Assembly: GCA_030615745.1 (NCBI GenBank)
Contig: JAUWYR010000014.1
Span: 1 to 53,999 of the forward strand
Length of the DNA stretch: 53,999 nt
Direction of reading: 5' to 3'
DNA from: Candidatus Zixiibacteriota bacterium
GTDB lineage: Bacteria > Zixibacteria > MSB-5A5 > SM23-73-2
Part shown: piece after piece, positions 6,904-40,098 of the stretch
How positions within the stretch are numbered: the stretch's first letter is position 1
Layout: every line of letters begins with the position of its first letter
The notes under the pieces: generated by a model
What the model was told of the DNA's origin: nothing
The model's database searches: none
Seen by the model: only the letters and a program-made list of their open reading frames with translations
Position numbers and translations under genes: made by a program

Positions 6904-6995
6904 GCGTCAGGAGCTCCACTCCCCTGGCCGGGCAGGCTGACGCTTAAAAACTTCTCCTAATGCTAACGGCTCTGTCGGGAGGTAACTCCCGACAG
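6904..6995. repeat. REP-like hairpin pair; first arm interrupted by a 15-nt GC-rich insert
   Basis: Arm 1 is GCGTCAGGAG (6904-6913) with CTCC...TGACGC, split by the 15-nt insert CCTGGCCGGGCAGGC at 6923-6937. Without it, the arm matches the intact copy at 23388-23412. Arm 2 is the perfect CTGTCGGGAG-GTAA-CTCCCGACAG (6972-6995), identical to 23419-23442. Together with 7029-7077 it forms a composite block repeated at 23388-23545. Confidence 0.8.
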
Positions 6996-7344: not shown

Positions 7345-7380
7345 GAGGGATAAACCCTCCCTGGCCGGGCAGGTTCCTAT
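7345..7380. repeat. REP-like half element with 15-nt GC-rich insert
   Basis: GAGGG-ATAAA-CCCTC (7345-7359) is followed at once by CCTGGCCGGGCAGGT (7360-7374) and then TCCTATGCG, a degenerate CTAC foot. In intact copies the CCCTC continues directly as TGCTACGCG. It lies just upstream of the EamA gene. Confidence 0.7.
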
Positions 7381-20679: not shown

Positions 20680-21177
20680 ATGATTTATTATTACACAAGT
20701 TTTTCATCTCCTATCGGGAGAATTTACGCTCTCAAAACCGAGAAGGGTTTAAAACTTTTGACCTTTTCTAAAAATGAGTTAGAAAGCCAACTACATAAAT
20801 TAAAAATTAAAAATGGAAAATTAAAAAATAATAAGACACCTTTTTTAAATCTTAAAAAAGAGCTTCTGGATTATTTTTCAGGCAAAAAAGTTAACTTCTC
20901 AGAAAAGCTTGACTTTAGCTCTGGCACAGAATTTCAGAAAAAAGTATGGAAAGAGATGAGAAAAATTCCTTACGGACAAAAAAAATCTTATAAGTGGCTT
21001 GCGCAAAGAGTTGGTGATTTTAAAAAGGCAAGGGCAGTAGGTAATGCTTGCGGGTCTAATCCTTTTGGTATTATCATTCCCTGCCACAGGGTGGTAAAAG
21101 AGGATCGGGGTTTGGGAGGTTATTCAGGTGGTCTTTGGATTAAGAAAAAGTTGCTTGAGTTAGAAGCAAAAACTTAA
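20680..21177 (+). CDS. ogt: Methylated-DNA--protein-cysteine methyltransferase
   Basis: The 165-residue suicide enzyme moves alkyl groups from O6-alkylguanine to its own cysteine. The active site is IIIPCHRVVKEDRGLGGYSGG (Cys in PCHRV), preceded by the DNA-binding helix-turn-helix with arginine finger context RAVGNACGSNP. The N-terminal domain is short and carries an odd lysine-rich stretch HKLKIKNGKLKNN (about 40-52), encoded by a near-pure A/T repeat (20797-20830) also seen inside miaB. It sits 14 bases after uvrC, so the two repair genes are likely cotranscribed. Confidence 0.95.
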   Translation: MIYYYTSFSSPIGRIYALKTEKGLKLLTFSKNELESQLHKLKIKNGKLKNNKTPFLNLKKELLDYFSGKKVNFSEKLDFSSGTEFQKKVWKEMRKIPYGQKKSYKWLAQRVGDFKKARAVGNACGSNPFGIIIPCHRVVKEDRGLGGYSGGLWIKKKLLELEAKT

Positions 21178-21194: not shown

Positions 21195-21234
21195 GCAGAG
21201 CCATAAAGGCTTCTTGGTCGGGCAGACTGCTACG
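21195..21234. repeat. REP-like half element with 15-nt insert and CTAC foot
   Basis: GCAGAGCC-ATAAA-GGCT...CTGC followed by TACG. The 3' arm GGCTCTGC is split after GGCT (21211) by the 15 bases TCTTGGTCGGGCAGA (21212-21226), a diverged form of the CCTGGCCGGGCAGGC insert. The uninterrupted arm CAGAGCC-ATAAA-GGCTCTG occurs at 40076-40094. Confidence 0.8.
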
Positions 21235-23387: not shown

Positions 23388-23418
23388 GCGTCAGGAGCTT
23401 TGCTCCTGACGCTTTTTT
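23388..23418 (+). terminator. Terminator formed by a GCGTCAGGAG palindrome
   Basis: Perfect 10-bp stem GCGTCAGGAG (23388-23397) and CTCCTGACGC (23403-23412) followed by TTTTTT. It is the first strong terminator after the PhaR-like gene, and its arm is shared with the repeats at 5674 and 6904. Confidence 0.7.
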
Positions 23419-23477: not shown

Positions 23478-23540
23478 GCAGAGGGATAAACCCCCTGCTA
23501 CGCGTAGAGGCCTGCCCGTCCCGGGAGCCTTTATGGACCC
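23478..23540. repeat. Tail-to-tail REP-like halves; second half carries a 15-nt insert
   Basis: GCAGAGGG-ATAAA-CCCCCTGC, then CTACGCGTAG, then CCTGCCCGTCCCGGG inserted at 23511-23525, then AGCCTTTATGGACC. The uninterrupted version at 7029-7077 reads CGTAGCGG directly into AGCCTTTATGG, so the insert is exactly 15 bases. Confidence 0.75.
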
Positions 23541-26693: not shown

Positions 26694-26767
26694 GTAGGCG
26701 CAACCTTCCCTGGCCGGGCAGGCAGGTTGCGTAAACAGTTCCACGCAGTCTAAAGACTGCGGCGACC
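26694..26767. repeat. REPIN-like element (GTAG foot) with 15-nt insert in the loop of arm 1
   Basis: GTAG (26694-26697), then GCGCAACCTTC, insert CCTGGCCGGGCAGGC (26709-26723), AGGTTGCG, then arm 2 GCAGTC-TAAA-GACTGC (26745-26760) and a degenerate foot GGCGACC. The uninterrupted counterpart GCGCAACCTTCAGGTTGCG is at 34584-34602, with the same TAAACA spacer after it. Confidence 0.88.
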
Positions 26768-26777
26768 TTTGATAGAA

Positions 26778-26801
26778 TGCAAAAATAAATTTTTGCACTC
26801 C
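26778..26801. repeat. Hairpin TGCAAAAAT-AA-ATTTTTGCA with ACTCC tail
   Basis: Single arm ending in CACTCC, a half of the GGAG...CTCC class (compare 22376-22398). A near-identical copy is at 27581-27603. Confidence 0.65.
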
Positions 26802-26812
26802 AGTTTAGCTCG

Positions 26813-26880
26813 GTAGCACACCTTGTCTCAAGGTGTCTGTCACAGGTTGCCTGCCCGGCCAGGGGGATAACCTGTGATAC
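26813..26880. repeat. REPIN-like element with the 15-nt insert in reverse orientation
   Basis: GTAG (26813-26816), arm 1 ACACCTT-GTCTC-AAGGTGT (26818-26836), arm 2 CACAGGTT (26841-26848) with AACCTGTG (26869-26876). Between the halves of arm 2 sit GCCTGCCCGGCCAGG (26849-26863), the reverse complement of the insert at 26709, and then loop GGGAT. The foot is degenerate (ATAC). Confidence 0.85.
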
Positions 26881-34579: not shown

Positions 34580-34636
34580 GTAGGCGCAACCTTCAGGTTG
34601 CGTAAACAAATTTCGCAGGCTAAAGCCTACTGCTAC
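34580..34636. repeat. REPIN-like element, GTAG...CTAC feet (no insert)
   Basis: GTAG (34580-34583), arm 1 GCAACCT-TC-AGGTTGC (34586-34601), arm 2 GCAGGC-TAAA-GCCT..TGC with two extra bases (34615-34633), CTAC (34633-34636). It is the uninterrupted partner of 26694-26767. Confidence 0.85.
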
Positions 34637-40041: not shown

Positions 40042-40098
40042 GTAGCGGAGGGTTTATCCCTTCGCGTGACAGAATCAGAGCCATAAAGGCTCTGCTAC
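40042..40098. repeat. REPIN-like element, GTAG...CTAC feet
   Basis: GTAG (40042-40045), arm 1 CGGAGGG-TTTAT-CCCTTCG (40046-40064, one mismatch), arm 2 CAGAGCC-ATAAA-GGCTCTG (40076-40094), CTAC (40095-40098). Arm 2 is the uninterrupted version of the insert-bearing arm at 21195. Confidence 0.85.

Follow-up and report, generated by a model that had tools for sequence, protein, structure and literature searches.

A 15-nt unit, apparently mobile, in REP-like hairpins, insertion sequences and genes of a Zixibacteria genome

The window, a stretch of 53,999 nucleotides that forms contig C23 of a Zixibacteria genome (G000; 2.28 Mb, 98.6% complete), raises the question of why one GC-rich 15-mer interrupts the arms of several REP-like hairpins. 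The initial annotation proposed either a tiny mobile module parasitising REP-like palindromes or a protein-binding site added to them. All six of its sites were present (three exact, one with 1 mismatch and two diverged), the chance expectation for the 15-mer in the window being 0.16 matches; the 10 match rows obtained in the window include off-register reverse reads of this near-palindromic sequence. The uninterrupted relatives at 34584, 40076, 23388 and 7029 were found as well, and taking out 15 nt restored the arms (Table 1). A search of the window against Rfam gave nothing but one tRNA. The organism is taken as a member of Zixibacteria because a protein of the window had a single relative in GTDB contigs, in the Zixibacteria MAG SM23_73_2 (77% identity).

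Delimitation and genome-wide copies of the unit

To follow the unit through the genome, we counted its 14-mer core, CCTGGCCGGGCAGG, which occurs at 126 places in G000 with at most 1 mismatch, 66 in the forward and 60 in the reverse orientation, so that the two orientations noted in the window hold genome-wide. The control, the core pattern read backwards, had 0 genomic matches at the same tolerance. Exact matches to YCCTGGCCGGRCAGGC were found at 98 places. The base-by-base analysis covered 1.02 Mb, about 45% of G000, in stretches chosen around unit sites, and the hairpin and empty-site counts given below apply to this part.

The unit is best delimited as 5'-YCCTGGCCGGRCAGG-3', 15 nt in length and inserted at N^C. 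While the length of 15 nt stood as first read, the frame did not, and the unit starts one base further left because T-type copies bring their own 5' T. At L055:6458, the filled site reads TTCGTT[TCTTGGCCGGACAGG]CAGGG, and four near-empty paralogues read TTCGTTCAGGG; T-type copies such as this one and the copy in mltG give the same frame. T or C mostly precedes the insertion and C follows it almost invariably, only one target base being clearly fixed. No loss could be detected at the insertion points, and no duplication exceeds the ambiguous C. An example of the filled-hairpin pattern is CAACCTTCCCTGGCCGGGCAGGCAGGTTG.

Across roughly a dozen families of REP-like hairpins, the spacing of the host arms equals the empty value, the empty value +15, or +30 when units are nested. 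The arms with 0/+15 spacing include GCAACCT..AGGTTGC, GTAAACCT..AGGTTTAC, GAGCCATAAAGGCT..CTGCTACG, GGGATAAACCCT..CTGCTACG, CCCACGTT..AACGTGGG and GGGAGACC..GGTCTCCC, in which the insert measures 15 nt or a nested 30 and is of fixed length, as had been proposed. Rare exceptions in length are a 10-nt form with an internal deletion, CCCTGGCAGG, and a single 18-nt relative, CTCTGTAGCACGGGCAGG, which has mainly the right half in common with the unit and lies at L094:13310 at the usual insertion point of the host GGATGTTAT^CATCC.

The unit can fold as CCTG-N6-CAGG, with the 4-bp CCTG/CAGG stem stacking on the host stem; folded alone, it is no better than shuffled sequence. It spans 5 codons and is stop-free in all six frames. 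Positions 1 and 11 show C-G/T-A pairing in 104+10 of 118 copies in G000. We rejected this covariation as proof of a stem, considering that C-A copies occur in the sister species G001 and that only two main versions exist; the pairing may represent two alleles and not repeated compensation.

Table 1. Unit copies, empty host hairpins and chimeric elements (positions without a locus prefix are those of the window).
Feature	Coordinates	Strand	Context
unit CCCTGGCCGGGCAGG	6922..6936	+	3' arm of hairpin GCGTCAGGAG..CTC^CTGACGC, host 6904-6943; first read 6923-6937, exact; empty paralogues at L057:9432 (exact joined flank) and window 23388-23412
unit CCCTGGCCGGGCAGG	7359..7373	+	behind GAGGGATAAACCCT, host family f, right arm decayed; first read 7360-7374, 1 mismatch to the 15-mer
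decayed unit TCTTGGTCGGGCAGA	21212..21226	+	hairpin GAGCCATAAAGGCT^CTGCTACG, 3' of ogt (20680-21177; Pfam)
decayed unit, CCCGGGACGGGCAGG on minus strand	23511..23525	-	host family g
unit CCCTGGCCGGGCAGG	26708..26722	+	loop of GCAACCTT^CAGGTTGC, host 26699-26731; first read 26709-26723, exact
unit	26850..26864	-	hairpin CACAGGTTATCC^CAACCTGTG (minus strand), host 26840-26877; first read 26849-26863, exact
empty host hairpin, family k	34584..34602	+	counterpart of 26708
empty host hairpin, family g	40076..40094	+	counterpart of 21212
empty host hairpin, family e	23388..23412	+	counterpart of 6922
chimeric REP-like elements	L042:976, L043:16007, L049:12049, L055:7779, L058:4934, L058:5032, L076:10468, L081:16938

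Hosts of the unit in hairpins, genes and insertion sequences

When the unit was removed, a perfect stem of at least 7 bp was left at 58 of 111 analysed units (52%), compared with 14% of intergenic YC positions and 4% of all YC positions in the controls. The other copies lie in imperfect or chimeric hairpins, in insertion sequence (IS) genes and in housekeeping genes. As such, the view that the 15-mer occurs only inside REP-like elements is right for the window but not for the genome. The junction lies mostly in the hairpin loop, at the 3' end of the loop or in the 3' arm; this placement, raised as a possible rule, describes most hairpin copies but not every one. Within one host family the insertion point is always the same. 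A simple open-frame criterion places 87 of the 111 units in intergenic sequence, against 14% of the genome as a whole. In other hairpins of G000, one family k REP loop carries a different 30-nt double palindrome, TCCGCCAGAGGCGGATCCACCTACGGTGGA, and family n loops carry short palindromes such as CCCTTCGGGA; therefore, other loop inserts exist.

Copies inside genes allowed filled and empty orthologues to be compared directly. In mltG, G000 reads TAT GCC ATT [TCC TGG CCG GAC AGG] CCC AAC TTA and G001 reads TAT GCC CTG CCC GAC TTA; exactly these five codons are extra in G000 and absent from all six aligned order relatives. In an lpxH-like phosphoesterase gene, NLGEGLPGQGIYL in G000 corresponds to NLGRGTYL in G001, five codons fewer, and seven of eight relatives are equally short, G009 (L224) having an unrelated longer loop. 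Both copies are in frame and add 5 aa each. The case of pyrK is weaker because its insert in G000 sits in a loop of variable length. Units were also found in an IS256-type gene (two, L045), in an IS481-type gene (one, L070) and in an rve-type insertion sequence on contig C34 of G000 (L068:16605-17305), which holds three in a span of 0.7 kb (two in the open frame, one just upstream of it), a density far above the genome average. Elsewhere, units appear to be in frame in open reading frames of two other genomes, at L193:6448 in G033 (KKVEE PARPG KAKTKK) and at L107:5797 in G021 (SGL PARPGPARPG KGR).

The gene copies bear on what the unit is. It might be a selected REP loop variant, acting as a binding site or hairpin cap and spread by REP amplification and gene conversion and not by independent insertion. 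While most copies do lie in REP-like hairpins, at the same site within each host family, and lengthen the hairpin by the CCTG/CAGG stem, the unit also occupies a dozen or so host families as well as mltG, the lpxH-like gene, pyrK, several IS genes and the unit itself. Gene conversion requires homology, which is missing between these sites, and the in-gene inserts contradict this explanation, which we regard as improbable. Selection of a protein-binding site on REPs, the second proposal of the initial annotation, is likewise not supported because of the in-frame mltG and lpxH-like copies and the self-nested ones. The description as a parasite of REP-like palindromes proved too narrow because IS genes and housekeeping genes without a hairpin were also hit. 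Many REP copies could nevertheless have arisen from few insertions followed by REP amplification.

The unit also inserts into and beside itself. Self-nested units occur at L060:10945, which is the +30 nt case with a unit within a unit, and at L088:4592. A tandem of three copies, the middle one diverged, was found at L050:12047-12091, and G021 has tandems of two exact copies each at L107:5797-5826 and L108:3880-3909. These arrangements are relevant to the possibility that the 15-mer is not mobile but the footprint that a larger transposon or integrating element leaves on excision. A site-specific scar would fit the fixed sequence, fixed length and precise junctions, and IS genes and REPs are frequent targets; however, nested and tandem copies would demand repeated cycles, and no half-units flanking a larger element were found among 43 stray GGRCAGGC matches in the 1.02 Mb. 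We consider a scar unlikely.

At least eight sites are chimeric, with the left arm of one host family, the unit and the right arm of another (Table 1), and therefore recombination or deletion between units does happen. Judged from these joined arms, the unit is a recombination or deletion junction in the chimeric elements, and deletion between neighbouring direct copies would explain them without a new mechanism. The reciprocal product was absent from the roughly 45% of the genome that was read. Palindromes stall replication forks, and a polymerase stalled at a hairpin could copy the 15-mer from elsewhere by copy-choice or slippage, with recombination between copies redistributing it. Fork stalling and the chimeric sites speak for such a route, but it accounts neither for ends that agree to the base at unrelated sites outside hairpins, mltG among them, nor for the recurrence of one and the same unit in three bacterial families whose repeats differ, so that we give it little probability.

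The proposal of a tiny mobile module, on the other hand, was borne out by the fixed 15 nt, both orientations, unrelated hosts, empty-like paralogues for 83 of 118 sites, empty orthologues of coding genes, nested and tandem copies and signs of a recent burst. Based on these comparisons, the 15-mer is very probably a mobile insertion unit.

Distribution, age and possible movement of the unit

Of 133 Zixibacteria genomes, only five hold more than one exact copy of the unit, namely G000 (98 copies), G033 (10), G021 (5), G001 (4) and G012 (2); G018 has one hairpin-hosted exact copy, and the remaining genomes have zero or single exact copies, most of the phylum being without the unit. The unit-bearing genomes span three Zixibacteria families (f1, f5 and f11). 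Host sequences differ between the families and the unit is identical, a host in G033 being GGGGTTTGATTAAT^CAAACCCC. No shared flank between genera, as from a donor locus or ncRNA, was found among the fetched sites. Occurrence in three families points to horizontal spread or to loss from most lineages. Viral contigs were rejected as carriers: the 36 exact matches found there lie without exception in sequence whose GC content is 54-72%, and we treated them as chance for this reason and because no host hairpin was repeated.

The site next to ogt (window 21212-21226) is filled in both G000 and its sister species G001, at the same point of the same hairpin. The unit reads TCTTGGTCGGGCAGA in G000, decayed at 4 of 15 positions, and CCCTGGCCAGGCAGG in G001 (L101:6566). 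Most simply, this insertion would predate the species split and have decayed since. Considering that 98 places in G000 are still exact, most insertions are probably younger than the ogt site, and the unit has probably spread recently in G000. In another intergenic region common to both species, the units of the two occupy host hairpins that differ (L046:2537 and L103:7684). In G001, two units (L105:7473 and L106:7026) lie in a longer repeat that contains TGTCATTCTG, is not a simple hairpin and is 99 bp alike at 89%. A library or assembly artefact, an adapter-like sequence at hairpins, might be suspected for a short GC-rich sequence in an AT-rich draft assembly, but the decayed, in-frame and nested copies, the orthologous filled site in another assembly and the presence of the unit in several assemblies make it hardly credible.

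Because there is no coding room in the unit, we infer that an enzyme supplied in trans would move it. In the scheme that we propose, an HUH transposase (Y1, REP-associated), or an enzyme of similar kind that processes hairpins, would cut and join a single-stranded or hairpin intermediate, and the frame-neutral length of 5 codons without a stop would let the unit survive in genes. A hairpin intermediate is the likeliest because of the lack of duplication, the preference for palindromes and the CCTG-N6-CAGG fold; movement in trans, probably via a single-stranded hairpin, is on the whole the reading that we favour for the 15-nt unit.

The nature of the enzyme is a further step. REPs, the main hosts of the unit, are tied to Y1 (RAYT) transposases (PMC2817692, PMC3733652). 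Y1-type HUH enzymes are natural candidates because of this tie and because G000 has three Y1_Tnp genes. The domain is present in the five unit-bearing genomes listed, and in a Y1 tree one group of four comes from unit-bearing genomes (93/91). Y1 presence or subtype was nonetheless rejected as a predictor of the unit, because Y1_Tnp occurs in 117 of 130 Zixibacteria genomes and because a search of the phylum found close relatives of the G000 subtype in unit-free order mates. Transposition of the IS200/IS605 type is often strand-biased; copies of the unit, measured against GC skew, were unbiased between the strands (33 vs 37). That an HUH/Y1 enzyme moves the unit is thus a tentative idea, and a rather doubtful one. 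A reverse transcriptase (of a retron, a diversity-generating retroelement or a group II intron) that inserted identical copies from one RNA template would give uniform sequence, but this route is very unlikely given that none of the six unit-bearing genomes, which are drafts, one only 52% complete, yielded an RVT_1 domain. IS110-type Transposase_20 was likewise absent from the six genomes. No enzyme, donor locus or excision product of the unit was found; base-by-base reading covered roughly 45% of G000.

Comparison with known small repeats

If this reading is right, the size limit of transposable units falls to 15 nt, among the smallest mobile DNA units described, and proteins would have a route to gain fixed five-residue insertions. 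It would also provide a clean system to test how small dispersed repeats (SDRs) and similar very small repeats move, its assets being a fixed sequence, a narrow target, filled and empty orthologues and in-frame gene insertions. The full claim, that of the smallest mobile unit known, a 15-nt hairpin-forming cassette with a putative dedicated enzyme, N^C sites, a preference for loops and horizontal spread among Zixibacteria families, is possible but goes further than we would assert.

By published description, the closest known kind is the cyanobacterial small dispersed repeat SDR5, outlined there as a very short fixed sequence, apparently mobile, that inserts between the 3rd and 4th nucleotide of HIP1 (PMC4390886, PMC2884548). 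As in those outlines of SDR5, the unit is very short and fixed, with many copies, precise insertion into other repeats and empty counterparts. SDR5 is given as some 20 bp and cyanobacterial, whereas the unit has 15 nt, belongs to Zixibacteria and targets N^C, often in REP loops; beyond what is outlined for SDR5, it also occupies conserved genes whose orthologues have the empty site. Rickettsia palindromic elements, palindrome-like and in frame in many unrelated genes (PMC10969869), share in-frame insertion with the mltG and lpxH-like copies, but they are about 150 bp long and the unit is 15 nt and mostly intergenic. Yeast mitochondrial GC clusters are short, GC-rich and mobile-looking in AT-rich DNA, merge and shuffle, and include GC42, with a putative AG target duplication (PMC4478555). 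The unit resembles them in being short and GC-rich in AT-rich DNA and in its shuffling; it differs in being shorter, with only 15 nt, lying in a bacterial and not an organelle genome, and lacking a larger duplication.

The remaining families are hosts or fall further away. A REP is a palindrome of 20-40 nt with a GTAG or CGTC tag, whereas the unit has 15 nt and no tag and is nested inside such palindromes. GTAG-type REPs, which occasionally lie in genes (PMC3733652, PMC2817692), look like its main hosts and not its kin. In contrast with a MITE, it has only the 4-bp CCTG/CAGG inverted repeat and no duplication beyond the ambiguous C. IS200/IS605-type elements (Y1, HUH) insert without duplication next to a short fixed target; the unit shows no duplication and an N^C target in which only one base is clearly fixed, and Y1 genes occur equally in unit-free relatives. 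The unit is probably an unusually small member of the very small mobile repeats, fixed in length and apparently recently spreading.
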